From NCBI GenBank assembly GCA_014653715.1, contig JACWEB010000003.1:1-61716 (forward strand): a stretch of 61,716 nucleotides of DNA. The letters run 5' to 3'. The translations under genes were made by a program, and so were the position numbers. Under the pieces are notes generated by a model. That model was not told the DNA's origin, made no database searches, and worked only from the letters and a program-made list of their open reading frames with translations. Position 1 is the first letter of the stretch. The number at the start of each line of letters is the position of its first letter. Below, piece by piece: positions 11,607-25,629 of the stretch. This DNA comes from Pelagibacterales bacterium SAG-MED31 (GTDB lineage Bacteria; Pseudomonadota; Alphaproteobacteria; HIMB59; GCA-002718135).

Positions 11607-11631
11607 ACTAATAATATTGAATATTTTTAGT
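11607..11631. promoter_or_regulatory. Near-perfect 12-bp inverted repeat upstream of the SBP gene
   Basis: ACTAATAATATT-G-AATATTTTTAGT: one mismatch between arms; sits about 45 bp upstream of the assigned start. Confidence 0.35.
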
Positions 11632-11676
11632 GAAGTAGTATGGGTTCATTATCAAATTTCTATGGAGGAAATAAAA

Positions 11677-13251
11677 ATGAAAAAATTAATTAATATTCTT
11701 TTGGTATTGGTTATGTCAGGTTTTGTTTCAACTTCATTTGCCGCTTCATTAAAGTGGTCAATGCCAGGTGACTCATTAACCTTAGATCCACATGCTCAAA
11801 ATGAAGGACCAACACACATGGTTTCTCGACAAGTATATGAAGGACTAGTAACTCCAGGTATTAACATGGAAATACTCCCACAACTTGCAGAGTCATGGGA
11901 GGCTACTAGTGCAGATATTTGGATATTTAATATTCGTAAAGGAGTTAAATTTCATGACGGCTCAGATCTTGATGCAAGAGATATAGCCTTCAGTATTAAT
12001 AGAGCTAAAACAGCACCATCTGATATGGTAGATTTAATCAAAAGTATTAAATCAGCATCAGCAATTGATGATCATACTGTTGTAATTAACACTAATGGAC
12101 CAAATCCACTTCTTTTAAACCAACTTACACAAATATTTGTAATGTCTGAAGCTTGGGCAAAAGCCAACAGTTGTGAAGTATCATACAACTGGGATGCTGG
12201 CGAAACTTCTTACTGTGCTTCCAATGCAAACGGTACTGGACCTTTTAAAATCACTTTTAGAGAACAGGACGTAAGAACTGTTTTCGAAAAAAATAATGAT
12301 TGGTGGGGAGATCATAGCACTCATAATTTAGATCAAATAGAACTACTTCCAATTAAAAATGACGCAACAAGAGTTGCAGCACTTCTCTCTGGTGAAATTG
12401 ATTATACTAATATTGTACCAGTTCAAGATATAGATAGAATTAAATCTTCTTCTAGTCATACGGTAAAATCAACACCATCAAATAGAACAATATTCTTTGG
12501 AATGGATCAAGGCTCAGCTGAACTTAACTCATCAAATATTAAAGGTAAAAATCCTTTTGCTGATAAAAGAGTTCGTTTAGCAATGTACCATGCGTTAGAT
12601 ATGGAAGCTATTAAGGATAAAGTTATGAGAGGACAAAGTGCTCCTGCTGGTATTATTACTGCACCAGGTATCAATGGGCACACACCGGAACGTGATCAAA
12701 GACTTCCTTATGATCCAGAACTGTCAAAAAAATTATTGGCAGAAGCAGGTTATCCTGATGGATTTGAGCTTACATTAGACTGTCCTAATGATCGTTATAT
12801 TAATGACGAGGCTATTTGTGTAGCTGCTATTGGTATGTTTGCGAAAATTGGTGTTACAGTAAATCTTGATGCCAAAACTAAAAGTCAACACTTCTCTGAA
12901 ATTAAAGAAGGTGATTCAAATGGTATGACAAGTGATATGTATATGTTAGGTTGGGGAGTTCCAACTTTTGACAGTGAATATGTATACTCATATTTATTTG
13001 ATAGTGCTGGTAGCTGGAATAAAGTAAATTTTAGTAATGCTAGAGTGGATGAGTTAGTTGCATCAATGAAGATTGAAACAGACTTAGATAAAAGAAATGC
13101 TATGATTGCAGAAGCTTGGGATATTACTCAAGATGATGTAACATACTTACCTTTACATCACCAAGTTGCAAATCAGGCATCTAAAAGTAATGTCGATGTT
13201 CCAATTAGAATGAACAATGAACCATTATTTAGGTTTACTAACGTAAACTAA
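11677..13251 (+). CDS. Periplasmic peptide-binding protein (SBP_bac_5 family) of ABC transporter
   Basis: Signal peptide MKKLINILLVLVMSGFVSTSFA, LTLDPHAQNEG...VSRQVYEGL, strong SD (ggagga) before ATG 11677, followed by two permease genes and an ATPase gene. Confidence 0.9.
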   Translation: MKKLINILLVLVMSGFVSTSFAASLKWSMPGDSLTLDPHAQNEGPTHMVSRQVYEGLVTPGINMEILPQLAESWEATSADIWIFNIRKGVKFHDGSDLDARDIAFSINRAKTAPSDMVDLIKSIKSASAIDDHTVVINTNGPNPLLLNQLTQIFVMSEAWAKANSCEVSYNWDAGETSYCASNANGTGPFKITFREQDVRTVFEKNNDWWGDHSTHNLDQIELLPIKNDATRVAALLSGEIDYTNIVPVQDIDRIKSSSSHTVKSTPSNRTIFFGMDQGSAELNSSNIKGKNPFADKRVRLAMYHALDMEAIKDKVMRGQSAPAGIITAPGINGHTPERDQRLPYDPELSKKLLAEAGYPDGFELTLDCPNDRYINDEAICVAAIGMFAKIGVTVNLDAKTKSQHFSEIKEGDSNGMTSDMYMLGWGVPTFDSEYVYSYLFDSAGSWNKVNFSNARVDELVASMKIETDLDKRNAMIAEAWDITQDDVTYLPLHHQVANQASKSNVDVPIRMNNEPLFRFTNVN

Positions 13252-13265
13252 AATTAACTTATAAT

Positions 13266-13294
13266 TTTTGGCCAGAGTAATACTCTGGCCAAAA
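13266..13294 (+). promoter_or_regulatory. Perfect 14-bp-arm hairpin between SBP and permease genes
   Basis: TTTTGGCCAGAGTA-A-TACTCTGGCCAAAA: both arms perfectly complementary, GC-rich core in an AT-rich intergenic region. Confidence 0.85.
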
Positions 13295-13302
13295 TTCACA
13301 CA

Positions 13303-14280
13303 ATGATCAGCTATTTTTTCAAAAGACTACTCCAATCTATTCTTGTTATGTTTGTTGTTGCTTTTGTTTCATTTTCACTTTTTAATTTTGTTGGTGATCC
13401 TGTTAACAGCATGACAGGGGAAGATGCTTCGGATGAAAGAAGGGCTGAAGTAAGAGAGATATTAGGGTTAAATGATCCTGTCTATATTCAATTTTCTAGA
13501 TTTGTTGGCAATATAGTTCAAGGAAATTTTGGTATTTCTTATCAATTAAAAAGAGAAGTTTCTGATTTAATAGGTGAAAGATTACCAGCAACTCTTGAGT
13601 TAGTTTTTGTGTCTGCAATGCTAGCTATAATAATAGGAACAATTTTAGGAGTCTATACAGGTATTCATAGAGATAGTTATTTATCAAATATTATTCTCGT
13701 TGTGTCTCTAGCTGGTGTTTCCCTCCCCACATTCATCATTGGTATTATGCTAATATACTTATTCTCAGTTATCTTAGGCATTCTTCCATCTTTTGGAAGA
13801 GGAGAGGTTACTGATTTGGGTTTTTGGACAACAGGATTTTTAACTATCTCTGGTTTAAAAGCTCTTATACTTCCATCCATTACCTTAAGTTTATTTCAAA
13901 TGACTTATGTAATAAGACTAGTCAGAGCTGAAATGATGGAAATATTACAAACTGATTATATTAAATTTGCAAGAGCAAGAGGAATAAAAAATAACATAAT
14001 TAACTATAAGCACGCACTCAAAAATGGCTTAATACCTGTCATAACAATAACAGGTATTAATATTGGTACTTTAATTGCCTTTTCTATAATTACAGAAACA
14101 GTTTTTCAATGGCCTGGTATGGGCTCCCTATTTATTAACGCCGTATACTTTGTCGATATACCCATCATGTCTGCTTATATGATTATGGTGGCTTTTATTT
14201 TTGTAATGATAAATTTTATAGTTGATATCACTTATTATTTTATTGATCCAAGAATTAGACTTAAAGAAGAAAGCAATTAA
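13303..14280 (+). CDS. Peptide ABC transporter permease (DppB/OppB family)
   Basis: N-terminal MISYFFKRLLQSILVMFVVAF; GLNDPVYIQFSRFVGNIVQGNFG; EAA-loop region RARGIKNNIINYKHALKNGLIPVIT. Confidence 0.9.
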   Translation: MISYFFKRLLQSILVMFVVAFVSFSLFNFVGDPVNSMTGEDASDERRAEVREILGLNDPVYIQFSRFVGNIVQGNFGISYQLKREVSDLIGERLPATLELVFVSAMLAIIIGTILGVYTGIHRDSYLSNIILVVSLAGVSLPTFIIGIMLIYLFSVILGILPSFGRGEVTDLGFWTTGFLTISGLKALILPSITLSLFQMTYVIRLVRAEMMEILQTDYIKFARARGIKNNIINYKHALKNGLIPVITITGINIGTLIAFSIITETVFQWPGMGSLFINAVYFVDIPIMSAYMIMVAFIFVMINFIVDITYYFIDPRIRLKEESN

Positions 14281-14282
14281 TT

Positions 14283-15206
14283 ATGATTAAGCAAACTTTT
14301 AATAAAATTTATGATACTGATATAGGCTATAGTTTCTTTAATTCAAAAATTGCTATTATTTCATCAAGTATTTTTTTTATAATTTTTCTTTGCTCTTTTT
14401 TTGCAGGAATAATTGCACCTTACAATCCTTTTGATCCTGCAAGTGTTTCTTTGATGGATGCTTTTACACCACCTGTATGGTCAGATGGAGGAAGTGCAAG
14501 TTTTTTTCTGGGAACTGATCAGCAAGGACGGGATATGTTTTCTACAATGATTTATGGTTCAAGAATTTCTCTGATCGTTGGTTTTGCTTCAATTTTGTTT
14601 GCTATGATATTAGGGGTCTTTCTTGGTGTAACTGCAGGATATATAGGTGGTAGATATGAAATAATTATAATGCGCATTACAGATATACAATTAACAATAC
14701 CAACCATTTTGATGGCTTTATTAGTAGATGGAATAGCTAGAGCAGTAATTTCCCGATCAATGCATGATGAGATGGCAATTTATGTTTTAATCTTTGCCAT
14801 TGGTATTTCTGAATGGCCTCAGTTTGCTAGAGTTACCAGAGCATCAACTCTGGTTGAAAAAAATAAAGAGTACGTTTCTGCATCTAGGATCATTGGTTTA
14901 TCAAATATAATTATAATGTTTAAACATATATTACCTAATATTCTTAGACCTATTCTAGTAATTGCAACAATTGGTTTAGCTTTAGCTATTATAACAGAGT
15001 CAACATTGAGTTTTTTAGGAGTTGGGGTGCCACCAACAACACCTTCTTTAGGAACACTTATTAGATTTGGAAATAATTTTTTATTTTCTGGTGAGTGGTG
15101 GATAACTTTTTTTCCTGCTATTTTTCTTGTAGTCTTAGCTTTATCTATTAATCTTTTAGGAGATTGGATGAGAGATGCCTTAAATCCAAAATTAAAAAAG
15201 AGATGA
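14283..15206 (+). CDS. Peptide ABC transporter permease (DppC/OppC family)
   Basis: FFLGTDQQGRDMFSTMIYGSRISLIVG; LPNILRPILVIATIGLALAIITESTLSFLGVGVPP. Confidence 0.9.
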   Translation: MIKQTFNKIYDTDIGYSFFNSKIAIISSSIFFIIFLCSFFAGIIAPYNPFDPASVSLMDAFTPPVWSDGGSASFFLGTDQQGRDMFSTMIYGSRISLIVGFASILFAMILGVFLGVTAGYIGGRYEIIIMRITDIQLTIPTILMALLVDGIARAVISRSMHDEMAIYVLIFAIGISEWPQFARVTRASTLVEKNKEYVSASRIIGLSNIIIMFKHILPNILRPILVIATIGLALAIITESTLSFLGVGVPPTTPSLGTLIRFGNNFLFSGEWWITFFPAIFLVVLALSINLLGDWMRDALNPKLKKR

Positions 15207-16903
15207 GTTTATTAGAAATTAAAAATTTAAACATTAGTTATAAAACTAGAAAAGAAACTATAGTTGCTAGTAGTAATGTTAATTTTACATTAGAGAGAGG
15301 TGAAATACTAGGTATCGTTGGTGAGTCTGGATCTGGTAAATCAACTATAGCTAATGCAATTATTAATTTAATTGATCCACCTGGGCAAATTACTGACGGT
15401 ATAATAAAAATAGACAATAAAGAATTACAAAATAATGAAGAAATCATTCAAAAAATAAGAGGAAAAAAAATAGGATTTGTTTTTCAAGATCCACAAACCT
15501 CATTAAATCCACTTTTTAAAATAAAAGATCAATTAATAGAAACAATACAAACACATCTAAGTGTATCTTACGATGAGGCTCTAAAAAAATCTATTAATCT
15601 TCTTGAAGAAGTTGGGATAGAAAACGCAACTAAAAGAATTGAAGATTATCCTCATCAATTTAGCGGAGGTATGCGTCAACGGGTTGTTATTGCTTTAGCA
15701 ATAAGTTGTGAGCCAGATCTAATAATAGCAGATGAACCAACAACTGCATTAGATGTTAGTATTCAATATCAAATCTTAGAATTATTAAAAGAACTTACAA
15801 TAAAAAGAAATTTAGGAGTTATTATTATTACTCATGATATGGGGGTGATTGCTGAAACTACAAATAAAGTGATTGTTATGCGTCATGGATTAATAGTGGA
15901 GCAAGGCAAGACTAAGGATTTGCTAACTAACCCAAAATCTACAGAAGCACGAAGTTTAGTTATATCAGTTCCGCCAACAAATAAAAAAATTGAAAGATTT
16001 AAACTCATTGGTCCTGATGGTTCAGAAATTACATCAAGTTCTACTAATTTAACAAAAAATATTATTAAAACTTGGGGGGTAAGAAAAAATACTAATCAAA
16101 AATTATTAGAGTTAAAAAATATAACAAAGGTTTTTGATGATCAGTCTATCTCTTATAGAAAAAAAATAGATGAAAATGCAGTTAAGGCAGTAAATAATGT
16201 TTCATTTAAGTTATTTGAGGGAGAAACACTCGGTTTAGTTGGAGAATCAGGTTCTGGTAAATCAACAATTGCTAAAATCATTACTGGGCTAGTTAGGCCA
16301 TCAGTTGGTGAGCTGGAGTATAATGGTTTGCCACTTTATAACTCAAAAAGAAAGTATCAAATTGACAAGAGTAGGGGTCAAATACAAATGATTTTCCAAG
16401 ACCCATATTCATCATTAAATCCAAGATTTAAAGTAAAGGATATTATCGCTGAACCAATTAAATTTTTTCAAAAAAGTATTATGAAAAATGACTTGGAGCA
16501 AAACGTTAATGATTTAATTGATATTGTCGGAATGACTAGAAAATCTTTGGATCGATACCCCCATGAATTTTCAGGTGGACAAAGGCAAAGAATTTCAATT
16601 GCAAGAGCACTAGCAACAAGGCCAAGATTATTAATATGTGATGAACCAACATCAGCTCTAGATGTAAGTATTCAAGCACAAATATTAAACCTACTAAAAG
16701 ATATTCAAGACGAATTACATTTAACAATGCTATTTATTAGCCATGATCTTCCTGTCATCAGACAAATGTGCAATAGAATAATAGTATTAAAAAATGGTAT
16801 TGTGTGTGAGACAAATGAGACTGAAAAGTTATTTAATGATCCTACACATAAATATACAAAAGAATTAATAAACTTAATGCCAAAAATTGAATCAATTATT
16901 TAA
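15203..16903 (+). CDS. Peptide ABC transporter ATP-binding protein with two nucleotide-binding domains (DppD-DppF fused)
   Basis: Two Walker A motifs (GESGSGKST twice), two signature motifs (FSGGMRQR, FSGGQRQR). Start at ATG 15203 overlapping the oppC-like stop (ATGA). Confidence 0.9.
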   Translation: MSLLEIKNLNISYKTRKETIVASSNVNFTLERGEILGIVGESGSGKSTIANAIINLIDPPGQITDGIIKIDNKELQNNEEIIQKIRGKKIGFVFQDPQTSLNPLFKIKDQLIETIQTHLSVSYDEALKKSINLLEEVGIENATKRIEDYPHQFSGGMRQRVVIALAISCEPDLIIADEPTTALDVSIQYQILELLKELTIKRNLGVIIITHDMGVIAETTNKVIVMRHGLIVEQGKTKDLLTNPKSTEARSLVISVPPTNKKIERFKLIGPDGSEITSSSTNLTKNIIKTWGVRKNTNQKLLELKNITKVFDDQSISYRKKIDENAVKAVNNVSFKLFEGETLGLVGESGSGKSTIAKIITGLVRPSVGELEYNGLPLYNSKRKYQIDKSRGQIQMIFQDPYSSLNPRFKVKDIIAEPIKFFQKSIMKNDLEQNVNDLIDIVGMTRKSLDRYPHEFSGGQRQRISIARALATRPRLLICDEPTSALDVSIQAQILNLLKDIQDELHLTMLFISHDLPVIRQMCNRIIVLKNGIVCETNETEKLFNDPTHKYTKELINLMPKIESII

Positions 16904-20081: not shown

Positions 20082-20315
20082 GTGGAATATTCAACAGATA
20101 ATATAATTAAACTTGCATGGAGTGATAGAGTTTCATTTGAAAAAATTGAACGACTACATGGAAAAAATGAATCAGAAGTAATCAAAATAATGAGAAAAAA
20201 TTTAAAGCCAAAATCTTTTAAAATATGGAGAGAGAGGGTAAGTGGCAGAACAAGAAAGCATGAAAAAAAAAGGTCTCTTTCATTCAAACCTTTTCGATTT
20301 GATGACTATGTATAA
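20082..20315 (+). CDS. Small conserved protein of the DUF2805/TIGR03643 type
   Basis: IIKLAWSDRVSFEKIERLHGKNESEVIKIMRKNLKPKSFKIWRERVSGRTRKHEKK; GTG start. Confidence 0.7.
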   Translation: MEYSTDNIIKLAWSDRVSFEKIERLHGKNESEVIKIMRKNLKPKSFKIWRERVSGRTRKHEKKRSLSFKPFRFDDYV

Positions 20316-20853
20316 GATTATATTTACTTATTTATTTTTTTTAACAATATCATCATTTTTATATGCAGATCAAAATGATAAAAGATTAAATTATTTATTT
20401 GATAAACTAGTAGTTGCCGAAGAAGAAAAAGAAATAAATAAAATAACCAATCAAATTTGGAAAATTTGGCATGAAATTGATGATCCTAAAACAACTAGAG
20501 AGTTTGAAACTGGTGTTCAAATGATGAATTTAGGATATTTCAAAAGATCAATTGATTATTTTGATAAAGTAATAAACAAAAATCAAAACTTTGCTGAAGC
20601 TTGGAATAAGAGAGCAACTGCTCATTTTATGATGGGTAATTTTGACTTATCAATGCAAGATATTAGCAAAACTTTACAGTTAGAACCCAGACATTTTGGA
20701 GCTTTAGATGGTATGGGATTAATATATATTCATCTTAATCAACCTGATAAAGCAATTGATATTTATAATAAAATGTTAGAAATTTTTCCTAACAGTATTT
20801 CAACAAAAATGAAAATAGAAAGAATTTTATCTCGTAAAACTCAATCCACTTAA
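20302..20853 (+). CDS. Exported TPR-repeat protein
   Basis: Signal peptide MTMYKIIFTYLFFLTISSFLYA; TPR repeats (FAEAWNKRATAHFMMGNFDLSMQDISKTLQLEPRHFGALDGMGLIYIHL). Confidence 0.75.
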   Translation: MTMYKIIFTYLFFLTISSFLYADQNDKRLNYLFDKLVVAEEEKEINKITNQIWKIWHEIDDPKTTREFETGVQMMNLGYFKRSIDYFDKVINKNQNFAEAWNKRATAHFMMGNFDLSMQDISKTLQLEPRHFGALDGMGLIYIHLNQPDKAIDIYNKMLEIFPNSISTKMKIERILSRKTQST

Positions 20854-20891
20854 AAAATAAATTTTATAAAATTACAATTAAGAAAATAGGT

Positions 20892-21464
20892 CTACTTAAA
20901 ATTTACTGCTTTCCTCAACAATACATCATTATATTTTTCACTTTTACTTAGTTGATTGTAAGCAGTAATAGTATTTAGGCAATGTAATTGAATAGTTGGT
21001 GGCATACCAATCTTCGCTAATTCTTGGGAACTTTTTTGTTTAAAAGTTTTATTAAAGAGATTTACACTATTTGATTTCAGGAAACCTGTTAACGTTGTTG
21101 CAGATACTGCAAAATTTACATTCTCTGGAATATAAGGTGATTCTTCATCAAGTAACATTTTAACTTTATTAAGCCCAGACGAAGCAACACCAACTACCTG
21201 ACCATTATAATTTAAGACTGGACCACCACTATAACCTGGTTGGATAGCAGCATCTATTTGTATCAGAGATATATCATTATTTGGGCCACTTAATGAACTC
21301 ACAATTCCTCTAGTAAGCTTAACACTAGAGCTTAAATTTTCTGCTAAGGGAAAGCCAAAAGCCATAATATCTTGACCAAATTCTGCTCCAGAAGGATTTA
21401 TAATGATCGATATCTTACATCTCCCAACACGTGATATTATTTTAAATCCAATACTTTTTACCAC
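20892..21464 (-). pseudogene. Truncated trypsin-like serine protease (C-terminal half only)
   Basis: Retains GQDIMAFGFPLAENLSSSVKLTRGIVSSL and QPGYSGGPVLNYNGQVVGV (Ser codon 21228-21230), but the His- and Asp-bearing N-terminal lobe is absent. Starts with GTG overlapping the upstream stop. Could be a non-catalytic protein rather than a pseudogene. Confidence 0.6.
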
Positions 21465-24400
21465 TTAGTTAACACTTGATCTTCGATGCCATTTAGTTGA
21501 GGTGTTTGGTTTGCTTGTCTTGATACGTTTTTGTTGATGAATGCAAAAAGCTCTCCATTTGTAATTTTATTATCACTATTTGCATCTGCCTCCCCTTCTA
21601 GTCCCTTCATCATGTAATACGAGAATAAACCATGCTCAGCCTCTTTTAATACCTTTGCGGTTTCTGTATTTGAAGATGCACTAAATATTGTAAAATTTGA
21701 TGGTATATCTTGCTCTTGAGCATCGATAAAGATAGGTCTTGCTGCAACCAAGAGTTCTTCGGTACGTGAAGCTCCACTATAACAAGTATCTAAGAAAACG
21801 GTGACATGCTTTGGGTTTAGTTCTGCTATTTGATCAAATAATTGATTACGCATTAAAGATGTTAATTCTAGTAATTCTGGATCACCATCGGTTGGAAGTA
21901 AAAATAAATCACTACCATCTTCTGAAGCTAATCCATGACCAGAAAAATAGACATATAAATGAGTTTCATTATCTCTAATAACTTTAGGAAGCCATTTTTT
22001 GACTACACCTAAGGTATCATTTCTCCCAGCATCATTATTAATTAAAAGCTTTATATTTTCCTTCGGCACTCCAAGAGAGGCGAAGGCAAAATCATTAAAA
22101 TAAAGTGCATCATTTTCAGCATATAATGCAGAGAATGTATTTTTATAATTCTCTACACCAATAATAAGCGCTGCTTTATTTGTGCTTATCTCACTTTTTA
22201 TTTTAGTTGGATTAAGACTATCAAGTTTCACTTGTTGAATAACTACTTTTTGACGTTTTAAGCTTACTATCTTAGAAGATTTATTTCCGTGAATATCAAT
22301 AGCCACAATTTCTACATCTTGTCCTTTTGGTTTCACAAAAAATTCTTTTTTGAAATTTGAATTGTTAATGGAAACTTCATATCCATCAATAGTTAGACTA
22401 GCAATTTCACTCTCATCATTAATACTTCCAGATATCTCTGCCATTAATTGACTATTAGACTCAAACTCTTCACTTACTATTATGTTTGGACTTGAACCAT
22501 CCTCTGAAACTTGAATACTAAGATTAGTCTCAGTAACTTCTGTTGCTTTTGTTTTATTAGGTTTAGTTTTTACAATATTAGTTTCTTCTATGTTATTGCC
22601 ATCTGTTATTTTTTTAAGAATAAAATTACCTTTTACACTTACCTCAAAAATATTATTACCTAAAGAAGAGTATCTACATTTAATTCCATCAGAAGTTTCT
22701 AAAACATTTCCATCAGAAAATTCTAAAAACTCAGAATGAATTATTTGAATTTTTTCACTACCTCCAGCTTCTTTTTTTACTTTATCAAACAATGATGTTT
22801 TTGCTAATTCACAAGCCTCACCAAAGGTAGTATTCCCTCCAATCTGCACATCCATAGTAATATCATTTATTGTTATTTCTCTTGCTTCCTCTTCCTTCTT
22901 CTTTGCTTCTGCTATACGTTTTTCTTCTTCCTCTTTTGCTTTTTGCTTTTCTTTTGCAATTTGTTCTTCTTTTTGTTTTTTGAATAATGCCTTATCTCCA
23001 ACAATTGCATATCTAAATAATGGTTCATTGTTCATTCTAATTGGAACATCAACATTACTTTTAGATGCTTGGTTAATAACTTGATGATGTAATGGTAAAT
23101 AAGTTACATTATCTTGAGTAATATCCCAAGCTTCTGCAATCATAGCATTTCTTTTTTTCATATTTGTTTCCATACCCATGGACGCTACTAACTCATCTAC
23201 TCTAGCATTACTGAAATTTACTTTATTCCAACTGCCAGAACTTTCAAATAGGTAGGAGTACACATAATGACTATCGTATGTTGGAACACCCCAACCTATC
23301 ATGTACATATCACTATAGCCATTTTTTACCTTACTGAAATGGAACGATTTGGTTTCCCCATCAGGCTTAACTTTCACTCCAATTTTTGCAAACATATCAA
23401 CAACAGCCAAGCAAATTGCTCCATCATTAATATAACGATCAGTAGGACAATCAAGAGTAACACTGAAACCATTTGGATAACCTGCCTCTGCCAATAGTTT
23501 TTTTGACAGTTCTGGATCATAAGGAAGTCTTTGATCTCTATCTGTAGTATAACCTTGAACACCAGGTGGAATAATAATACCTGCAGGAGCACTTTGTCCT
23601 CTCATTATCTTGTCTCTAATAGTATCCATATCTAAAGCATGGTACATTGCTAGACGAACTCTTTTATCAGCAAAAGGATTTTTTCCTTTAATGTTAGAAG
23701 AATTTAATTCAGCCGAACCTTGATCCATACCAAAAAATATTGTTCTATTTTGAGGAGTCATTTTTACATCGTGCGAAGAAGAAGATTTAATTCTTTCTAT
23801 ATCATGAACTGGAACAACATTGGTGTAATCGATTTCTCCAGATAAAAGTGCTGCAACTCTGGTTGCATCATTTTTAATAGGAAGTAACTCAACTTTATCT
23901 ACATTGAATGTACTTTCTTCACCCCACCAATTATCATTCTTTTCGAAGACAGTTCTTACGTCTTGTTCTCTAAATGTAATTTTGAAAGGTCCAGTACCGT
24001 TTGCATTGGAAGCACAATAAGATGTTTCTCTTGCATTCCAATTATATGAAACTTCACAACCATTTGCTTTTGCCCAAGCTTCAGACATAACAAAAATTTG
24101 AGTTAATTGGTTTAAAAGAATTGGATTTGGTCCATTAGTGTTAATTGCAACTTTATAATCATCAATAAATTTTATAGATTTAATACCCTTTAATAAATTT
24201 ACCATATCAGATGGGGCAGTTTTGGCTCTATTGATACTAAAAACTATATCTTTTGCAGTTAGAGCTCTTCCATCATGAAAATAAACTCCTTTACGAATAT
24301 TAAATATCCAAGTGTTAGAATTTATTATTTCCCATGATACTGCAAGCTGAGGAAGTATTTCCATGTTAATACCTTGAGTAACTAATCCTTCATATACTTG

Positions 24401-24556
24401 TCGAGAAACCATATGAGTTGGTCCTTCATTTTGTGCATGTGGATCTAAAGTTAATGAGTCATCTGGCATTGACCATCTGATCGTATTAGATAAAACTGAT
24501 GAACAAAAAATAATTATAAAAAATGATACTGAAAATTTTATAACATATTTACTCAT
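21458..24556 (-). CDS. Chimeric exported protein: SBP_bac_5 peptide-binding domain + coiled-coil linker + two small domains + C-terminal caspase-like (C14) domain
   Basis: Signal peptide MSKYVIKFSVSFFIIIFCSSVLS; residues about 26-525 closely match the 11677-13251 product; KKQKEEQIAKEKQKAKEEEEKRIAEAKKKEEEA linker; caspase motifs ALIIGVENYK, YVYFSGHG (His codon 21935-21937), VFLDTCYSGAS (Cys codon 21782-21784). Confidence 0.9.
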   Translation of the reverse strand: MSKYVIKFSVSFFIIIFCSSVLSNTIRWSMPDDSLTLDPHAQNEGPTHMVSRQVYEGLVTQGINMEILPQLAVSWEIINSNTWIFNIRKGVYFHDGRALTAKDIVFSINRAKTAPSDMVNLLKGIKSIKFIDDYKVAINTNGPNPILLNQLTQIFVMSEAWAKANGCEVSYNWNARETSYCASNANGTGPFKITFREQDVRTVFEKNDNWWGEESTFNVDKVELLPIKNDATRVAALLSGEIDYTNVVPVHDIERIKSSSSHDVKMTPQNRTIFFGMDQGSAELNSSNIKGKNPFADKRVRLAMYHALDMDTIRDKIMRGQSAPAGIIIPPGVQGYTTDRDQRLPYDPELSKKLLAEAGYPNGFSVTLDCPTDRYINDGAICLAVVDMFAKIGVKVKPDGETKSFHFSKVKNGYSDMYMIGWGVPTYDSHYVYSYLFESSGSWNKVNFSNARVDELVASMGMETNMKKRNAMIAEAWDITQDNVTYLPLHHQVINQASKSNVDVPIRMNNEPLFRYAIVGDKALFKKQKEEQIAKEKQKAKEEEEKRIAEAKKKEEEAREITINDITMDVQIGGNTTFGEACELAKTSLFDKVKKEAGGSEKIQIIHSEFLEFSDGNVLETSDGIKCRYSSLGNNIFEVSVKGNFILKKITDGNNIEETNIVKTKPNKTKATEVTETNLSIQVSEDGSSPNIIVSEEFESNSQLMAEISGSINDESEIASLTIDGYEVSINNSNFKKEFFVKPKGQDVEIVAIDIHGNKSSKIVSLKRQKVVIQQVKLDSLNPTKIKSEISTNKAALIIGVENYKNTFSALYAENDALYFNDFAFASLGVPKENIKLLINNDAGRNDTLGVVKKWLPKVIRDNETHLYVYFSGHGLASEDGSDLFLLPTDGDPELLELTSLMRNQLFDQIAELNPKHVTVFLDTCYSGASRTEELLVAARPIFIDAQEQDIPSNFTIFSASSNTETAKVLKEAEHGLFSYYMMKGLEGEADANSDNKITNGELFAFINKNVSRQANQTPQLNGIEDQVLTKW

Positions 24557-24693
24557 TTAATAATTATATCATTTAAAATGAAATATTCTGATATAAAATT
24601 TTAAAAAATAAATATAATCTTATATAAAATGTTAGTAAAATACTTAAAATCAAATAAAGTAACTTTTTTTCAATTTTTAAATAAGTTTCATAA

Positions 24694-25629
24694 TTAATTA
24701 ATAAATAAAAAAATTAAAATAGATAAAGTAAAAAAACTAATAAAAGTACTCAATACAATATTTGACGAAATTAGATCTTTTTGTGCATTATATCTATAGG
24801 CAAAGTAATAAGATTGCGAACCACTTGGTAGGGCTGATGCGATAGTTATAGTTACTACTAATAAATCTTCTAGGTTAAAAATATATTTTGCAATTATAAA
24901 ACCTATCACAGGGTGAATGATATTTTTTAAAAAAGTAAAAATTATTGATTTTTTAAATGATAATATTAAATTAAATTTTGCTAGAGAAATTCCTAAAGAT
25001 AAAAGAACGCAAGGTAAGGCAATGACTGAAACACTATTTAAAATATTCATCAATATATCAGGTTGCATAATTTTAGTATAATTGAAAAATATTCCTATAA
25101 AAATGCCTACGAGTACAATATTTTTAAATAACCCAGTTATTGTTGATAAAATCTTTTTGCTTAAGTTAAGACTTCTATTTCTATACGACTCTATTATTAT
25201 GGTGGTGTATGTGAAATGAACAAATCCATGAAATAATACAAGTATCATATATGGCATAACATTAGCTGTCCCCAAAAGGGAATGCATGAGGGGTATTCCG
25301 AGAGCAACAGAATTTCCAAAACAAGCAGAAAGACCTAAAAGTGCATTATCATCAGTTTTGTACTTAAATAATAAATTGCCAACTTGAAAACCAATTATGA
25401 AAACTAGAATTCCGCTACCAAAAAATGAAACTAATAATAAAACGGTATTTATTCTTGGAAATTCTATTTGCCAAAAATAAGTTATTAAAGCTAATGGGAG
25501 TAGAATATTGAAACTCAAATAATCAAATTTAGAGGTGATTTTTTCAGATACATTGATAAATTTTTTTATTATGAAACCTATAATAACATAACCAAATACT
25601 GAAAATATAATATAAATTAAGCTATTCAT
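24694..25629 (-). CDS. AEC (auxin efflux carrier)-family transporter
   Basis: About 10 TM; FGYVIIGFIIKKF, FNILLPLALITYF, GLSACFGNSVALGIPL, ITIASALPSGSQSYYFAYRY. Confidence 0.8.
   Translation of the reverse strand: MNSLIYIIFSVFGYVIIGFIIKKFINVSEKITSKFDYLSFNILLPLALITYFWQIEFPRINTVLLLVSFFGSGILVFIIGFQVGNLLFKYKTDDNALLGLSACFGNSVALGIPLMHSLLGTANVMPYMILVLFHGFVHFTYTTIIIESYRNRSLNLSKKILSTITGLFKNIVLVGIFIGIFFNYTKIMQPDILMNILNSVSVIALPCVLLSLGISLAKFNLILSFKKSIIFTFLKNIIHPVIGFIIAKYIFNLEDLLVVTITIASALPSGSQSYYFAYRYNAQKDLISSNIVLSTFISFFTLSILIFLFIN

Follow-up and report, generated by a model that had tools for sequence, protein, structure and literature searches.

The fusion gene and its domains

We analyzed a window of 61,716 nucleotides (positions 1 to 61,716 of contig JACWEB010000003.1, Pelagibacterales bacterium SAG-MED31), which is free of N and even in composition. 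Our subject is a gene in it that encodes, in one polypeptide, a complete solute-binding protein (SBP) domain of the SBP_bac_5 family and a C-terminal caspase domain (Peptidase_C14, PF00656). An earlier, sequence-only reading of the window had described this open reading frame (ORF), giving no strand; its extent was confirmed and it lies on the minus strand. The gene and its parts are as follows.

21458..24556, minus strand: SBP-caspase fusion gene, 1032 aa, uninterrupted frame from ATG to TAA
24485..24556, minus strand: putative signal peptide, residues 1-24, MSKYVIKFSVSFFIIIFCSSVLSN (hydrophobic stretch by eye; helix 4-17 in the AlphaFold model)
23000..24487, minus strand: residues 24-519, a complete SBP_bac_5 domain that duplicates the SBP of the genus's transporter (Pfam, pairwise comparison, trees)
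22886..22999, minus strand: Lys/Glu-rich helical linker, residues 520-557 (sequence; single helix 522-557 in the AlphaFold model)
22598..22879, minus strand: residues 560-653, homologous to the DUF4384 partner protein's N-domain (pairwise match)
22247..22510, minus strand: immunoglobulin (Ig)-like beta domain, residues about 683-770, constant in the family (Pfam in relatives; model)
21491..22177, minus strand: Peptidase_C14 (caspase) domain, residues 794-1022, with H874 and C925 (Pfam, alignment, model, fold match)

Pfam matched SBP_bac_5 to residues 67-442 (E 7.8e-81, 272.5 bits, profile positions 2-366 of 368) and PF00656 to residues 794-1022 (E 2.2e-13, 50.9 bits), both over the curated cut-offs of 32.4 and 21.4 bits, respectively; the two domains proposed by the sequence-only reading are thus on the same protein. 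The catalytic dyad that it had recognised as SGHG and DTCYSG was also found, as YFSGHG (H874) and DTCYSG (C925), both in columns that are invariant in the family alignment described below, and all other family-invariant caspase columns are intact as well. The best sequence-profile match of the caspase domain was yeast metacaspase-1, and its best fold match among the matches listed was MALT1 (3v4o_A, target TM-score 0.74). In the AlphaFold model the Ig-like and caspase part (residues 690-1032) has a per-residue confidence (pLDDT) mostly above 90. This model, together with Glucodextran_B and Cadherin-like matches in relatives, backs the Ig-like assignment, which had been suggested as an Ig/beta-like region. 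At the SBP-linker junction the SBP tail NNEPLFRY is followed by the linker KQKEEQIAKEKQ; the predicted single helix there agrees with the charged coiled-coil first noted. Judged by eye, roughly the first 24 residues look like a Sec signal peptide, which supports the earlier suggestion that the protein is likely exported. A promoter scan was uninformative, with sites no more numerous than in shuffles, and PADLOC returned generic caspase and trypsin matches only and no defence system.

A caspase family with a constant C-terminal end

The C-terminal 350 residues of the fusion protein, comprising the Ig-like and caspase domains, are constant across a family of exported-type caspases in which the N-terminus is swapped. 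The fusion protein matched the family profile of this region, of which it is itself one row, with 567 bits over positions 4-356 of 356. A closely related set is in another genome of the same genus, G140, which carries an array of five tandem, head-to-tail caspase genes.

L048 7114-18449 (G140:C1 about 148113-159448), minus strand: five-caspase array of G140, with a 7-base overlap between successive genes

The Ig-like and caspase ends of these five proteins are 60-65% identical to that of the window protein, their N-termini are unlike, and the N-terminus of the window protein matches none of the five. In the caspase tree, the domain from the window and the five from G140 formed a single clade (SH-aLRT 99), and therefore the exchange of N-termini occurred within a closely related set. 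A gene resembling a tyrosine recombinase lies near the array (L048 4367-5425). Tandem caspase genes of Magnetospirillum UT-4 (L078) and Rhodospirillaceae LM-1 (L082), which are distant Alphaproteobacteria, show the identical 7-base overlap.

We scanned the N-terminal modules of 45 family members and found MORN repeats in 8, Sel1 in 7, TPR in 7, and ankyrin, SH3_3, Trypsin_2 and SBP_bac_5 in one each, the last being the window protein; the remaining N-termini contain nothing that Pfam names. Some MORN-rich N-termini, from SAR116 and Pelagibacterales, have up to 13 repeats (L064 11116-14154 and L071 7742-11074). When named genomes were scanned, the same C-terminal half turned up in SAR116, Pelagibacterales, Rhodospirillaceae (Magnetospirillum), Nitrosomonadaceae, Hydrogenophilales and Oxalobacteraceae, and more distant relatives in Cloacimonadota and Marinimicrobia. 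Two contigs of the Celaenobacter antarcticus genome (L111 and L112) gave caspase matches with equal locus coordinates and scores, possibly from a duplicated contig end. Full-type ORFs keep GHG in 53 of 54 cases and DxCxSG in 50 of 54. The class survey covered 386 genomes, of which 60 had some family match; a strong match over most of the profile was confined to three besides the window, and the family is therefore patchy. No relatives of the caspase half were found in viral contigs.

The sequence-only reading had proposed a search for the same architecture in related genomes. Such a search recovered the caspase half, with an SBP_bac_5 front in none of the other 101 genomes of the genus. In a set of 190 distinct caspase ORFs, part of which are truncated at the ends of their loci, SBP_bac_5 was joined to a caspase in the window's ORF alone.

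Origin of and selection on the SBP half

The ATP-binding cassette (ABC) transporter that had been reported about 10 kb away is real, and it has an SBP of its own.

11617..13251, plus strand: stand-alone SBP belonging to this genome's ABC transporter; it shares 80% identity with the fused SBP (Pfam, pairwise comparison)
13303..16903, plus strand: two permease genes and the ATPase gene of the same transporter (read from translations; also conserved across sister genomes)

The 80% identity between the fused and the stand-alone SBP extends along their entire length. The stand-alone gene is found in most of the 102 genus genomes, and we compared the fused SBP with 30 sampled stand-alone orthologues: it is 81-83% identical to each of them, and they are 89.5-100% identical among themselves. 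In a codon tree the fused SBP was nested inside the genus, nearest to genome G006, and the stand-alone SBP of its own genome grouped with G058. The approximately unbiased (AU) test rejected a tree that keeps the fused SBP outside the stand-alone ones (p 0.0014), and a pairing of the fused SBP with the own SBP survived it (p 0.11). A recent duplication of this genome's own SBP is thus not favoured by the tree but compatible with the AU test, so that more than one donor lineage is conceivable.

The synonymous divergence (dS) between the fused SBP and the orthologues was 0.50-0.77, and that among the orthologues themselves 0.62-0.80. At equal dS, the ratio of nonsynonymous to synonymous divergence (dN/dS) was 0.16-0.21 for the fused SBP and 0.06-0.09 between stand-alone orthologues. 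The fused SBP is under relaxed yet purifying selection. The tree, these distances and these ratios therefore indicate that it is an old duplicate from within the genus, less constrained than the orthologues. It retains 365 of the 407 residues that are invariant in the 30 orthologues, and stretches unchanged relative to the orthologues include residues 142-166, 217-241 and 267-291. It scores below every NCBIfam equivalog cut-off, and its gene is outside any transporter operon, the operon having the separate SBP at 11617-13251.

The sequence-only reading took the ligand to be a peptide. In OppA the Asp of the GWCAD motif anchors the amino group of the peptide. This OppA/DppA position aligns with Pro (GWGVP) in both the own and the fused SBP, and therefore the ligand need not be a peptide; that part of the earlier proposal was an assumption. 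The SBP of the transporter operon itself (11617-16903) likewise lacks the OppA-type anchor, and the substrate of this transporter may not be a plain oligopeptide.

Partner genes and the mosaic build of the protein

Past the end of the G140 array come genes for a TPR-trypsin, a DUF4384 and an LPP20-like protein. All three partners are present in 9 of 35 loci, many loci being cut by contig ends, and the same search in 18 caspase-free control stretches gave a single weak match. Among the 102 genus genomes the LPP20-like gene was found only in G140, the carrier of the array. In G098, from another family of the order, one locus (L049 1-8396) has a row of caspase, TPR-trypsin, caspase and caspase (SH3 domain) genes, and another (L050) has a caspase, a 275-aa protein at the DUF4384 position and an LPP20-like lipoprotein.

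The small alpha/beta region described by the sequence-only reading is real and could be identified: residues about 560-653 of the fusion protein match, with 33% identity (pairwise E 6e-16), the N-domain of a DUF4384 protein encoded in a sister genome and are about 22 residues shorter. A profile of DUF4384 N-domains reached only E 0.11 on the window, and the homology rests on this pairwise match. A fold search with the middle domain gave no significant match; the best was RcsF (E 0.32), a mere hint of an SHS2/RcsF-like fold.

Two of the G140 caspases start with a domain that also starts the neighbouring LPP20-like protein, and a Phaeospirillum caspase has Sel1 repeats and a trypsin domain. From these shared front domains, the N-termini of the family appear to have been captured from neighbouring genes and, in the window protein, from a transporter gene. 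A 1053-aa polypeptide with Sel1 repeats, Trypsin_2 and caspase domains (L081 5183-8344) adjoins a separate TPR-trypsin gene.

The insertion and the downstream trypsin remnant

The fusion gene lies in a segment that is missing from the closest relative.

20862..24690, no strand: 3.83-kb segment missing from the closest relative, in which the TPR and Mem_trans genes enclose the empty site (flank alignment, synteny)
20242..20853, plus strand: TPR gene flanking the insertion (Pfam, synteny)
24694..25629, minus strand: Mem_trans gene flanking the insertion (Pfam, synteny)
20892..21464, minus strand: 3' remnant of a TPR-Trypsin_2 gene, 190 aa, with a 7-base overlap with the caspase stop

The closest relative, G058, matches the window up to 20,861 (88% identity) and from 24,691 (96% identity), and these flanks adjoin in G058. 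Wherever a sister genome shares this synteny, the Mem_trans gene comes directly after the TPR gene, except in G101, where the TPR gene was undetected. The segment contains the fusion gene and the 190-aa ORF, and was either inserted here or lost in all other genomes; we prefer insertion as the simpler explanation of the alignments. The unequal flank identity to the closest relative (L157), 88% left and 96% right, suggests a recombination edge at 20862-24690.

The ORF at 20892-21464 corresponds to the C-terminal half of a Trypsin_2 domain, in which the Ser region is retained and the His and Asp region is missing, and is 38% identical to residues 373-477 of the G140 TPR-trypsin protein. Of the partner set, the locus thus has the trypsin remnant and, within the fusion protein, the DUF4384 N-domain.

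Interpretation and alternative explanations

The architecture of the protein, its family, the split into constant and variable parts, the recurring partner genes, the insertion site and the purifying selection on the SBP are established. We regard the fusion as very probably real, and our account of the gene, its family and its origin as highly probable. As a whole, the explanation that we favour, and hold to be somewhat probable, is that this is a genuine gene for an exported caspase-type endopeptidase, a member of a family with constant C-terminal and exchanged N-terminal parts, and that its N-terminal module was copied from the transporter SBP of the genus. The SBP copy, joined to the Ig-like and caspase domains through the helical linker and the DUF4384-partner N-domain, would be exported to the periplasm, as the putative signal peptide seen by eye suggests, and the caspase domain would be active as a protease. 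The N-terminal module may decide what the protease meets, either a triggering ligand or a docking partner; this recognition mechanism we propose tentatively. Targets would be envelope proteins, possibly including the TPR-trypsin protein where it is intact. If it behaves like orthocaspases and paracaspases, the protein may plausibly cut after Arg or Lys and also cleave itself in the Lys-rich linker.

Several results weigh against this explanation. The SBP part of the AlphaFold model has a pLDDT mostly below 50 and is unusable because the alignment is shallow there. The dN/dS of the fused SBP, 2-3 times that of the orthologues, is compatible with a lost binding function. The fusion has been seen once, in a 54%-complete assembly, and is absent from the other 101 genus genomes. 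Because the downstream trypsin gene is truncated and the LPP20-like gene was not found in this 54%-complete genome, the system at this locus may be a degraded one. A serious rival explanation is that the SBP part is decaying: an array of caspases could have collapsed through deletions that brought together an SBP copy, a DUF4384 N-domain and a caspase, the present gene being what remains of it and its SBP part having no selected function. Such a history would account for the truncated and missing partners, the roughly 22 residues lacking from the middle domain and the accelerated evolution of the SBP. Yet 1032 codons are free of stops and frameshifts at a synonymous divergence of 0.5-0.8, the dN/dS of the SBP is still near 0.2, and the dyad and all family-invariant caspase columns are intact, and so we consider this unlikely, though well worth keeping in view.

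The sequence-only reading had proposed either a peptidase that would process peptides before their uptake or a ligand-gated periplasmic protease; in the latter, the caspase would become active once the SBP closes around a peptide or something similar. The SBP domain is complete by sequence, it retains most orthologue-invariant residues including whole unchanged stretches, and a predicted helix links it to the remainder of the protein. The Pro at the anchor position, however, speaks against it, and because elsewhere in the family the N-terminus consists of repeats or of domains without a name, not of a ligand cleft, small-ligand gating is not a family trait; we give it about one chance in a few. 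Less likely still, a non-sensing SBP might bring the protease to the transporter (13303-16903) or another partner, where it would cut peptides or envelope proteins beside the permease. The fused SBP is indeed a copy of that transporter's SBP, and the DUF4384 and LPP20 partners suggest an envelope-bound complex, but the fusion gene is outside the transporter operon and its cassette is an insertion, perhaps from another lineage.

An assembly or amplification chimera of an SBP gene and a caspase gene, about which the sequence-only reading was concerned, is very improbable. The fusion is a single observation in an incomplete genome, but the best identity of its SBP half to any stand-alone SBP is 83%, and its raised dN/dS is unlike that of any stand-alone orthologue tested, so that a plain chimera with a normal SBP gene is unlikely. 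Because both flanks continue into conserved synteny, a chimera would need two exact artefacts, and the sequence is even and uninterrupted by N. The SBP identity, the selection on it, the synteny and the empty site thus largely answer this concern. That reading would also have counted consistently separate genes in sister genomes against the fusion. No sister genome has the fusion, but this does not refute it because the fused copy is a separate, faster-evolving paralogue, and a stand-alone SBP coexists with it in this genome.

Beyond this locus, it is possible, though we put it below an even chance, that these genes belong to an as yet undescribed system of envelope proteases in marine as well as other Proteobacteria, with constant-end exported caspases, N-terminal receptors gained by domain capture, TPR-trypsin and DUF4384/LPP20-like partners, and, here, the lineage's own nutrient-binding protein recruited as a receptor. 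The role of bacterial caspases is largely open. A constant protease end with exchanged N-termini, up to five adjacent in one genome, would point to recognition as the evolving trait of this family, an idea testable by exchanging N-termini between copies. The broader family is a more interesting lead than the single fusion. For such a test the SBP-caspase is its handiest member: SBP ligands are accessible by standard binding screens, and the unfused relative 10 kb away offers a control.

Relation to known systems

The sequence-only reading did not recognise the arrangement, rightly so for SBP_bac_5 on a caspase; binding-protein domains on caspases, however, already have precedents. The diversity of accessory domains on bacterial caspases was established earlier (Asplund-Samuelsson 2012, PMC3501461), a survey of cyanobacterial orthocaspases contains 8 Peripla_BP_6 and 23 DUF4384 members (PMC8283722), and EACC1 caspases include ones with an extracellular PBP domain (Kaur et al. 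2020, PMC7159879). In the open-access literature we found no paper on SBP_bac_5 together with Peptidase_C14, which is not proof of absence, none on metacaspases together with SAR116, and no description of a caspase array with TPR-trypsin, DUF4384 and LPP20 partners, again not proof. The text consulted of PMC3501461 and PMC8283722 does not describe the exported Ig-caspase, the overlapping five-gene arrays or the TPR-trypsin, DUF4384 and LPP20 neighbours.

Orthocaspases resemble the present family in having a caspase domain with a His/Cys dyad and varied accessory domains, Sel1 and TPR being common (PMC3501461, PMC8283722), and their Peripla_BP_6 members are binding-protein/caspase polypeptides (PMC8283722). 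Multi-caspase operons of up to three genes are known there, and the G140 array has five. The binding domain there is Peripla_BP_6, whereas here it is SBP_bac_5, another Pfam family, and a copy of the lineage's transporter SBP. The two-gene EACC1-caspase systems likewise combine an unchanging caspase with attached domains that vary enormously, an extracellular PBP among them, and have a constant partner gene. They differ in that the caspase is N-terminal, the C-termini vary and the partner is the EACC1 membrane protein; the present family has its caspase at the C-terminus and its variation at the N-terminus. The NCBIfam model caspase_w_EACC1 (NF047832) scored 73.2 bits on the fusion protein, below its cut-off of 140, and no EACC1 gene was recognised among the translations of the neighbouring genes, no EACC1 model having been run.

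The MALT1 paracaspase (PDB 3v4o, 3uo8) shares the caspase fold and likewise pairs Ig and caspase domains, but the identity is about 16%, and the Ig-like domain precedes the caspase in this exported bacterial protein and follows it in MALT1. With SBPs of the GsiB, Opp, Dpp and NikA type the fusion protein shares the full-length SBP_bac_5 domain, and the genome's own SBP, 80% identical to the fused one, is encoded in an ABC operon; in the fusion protein the domain is joined to a protease and the peptide-anchoring Asp is replaced by Pro.

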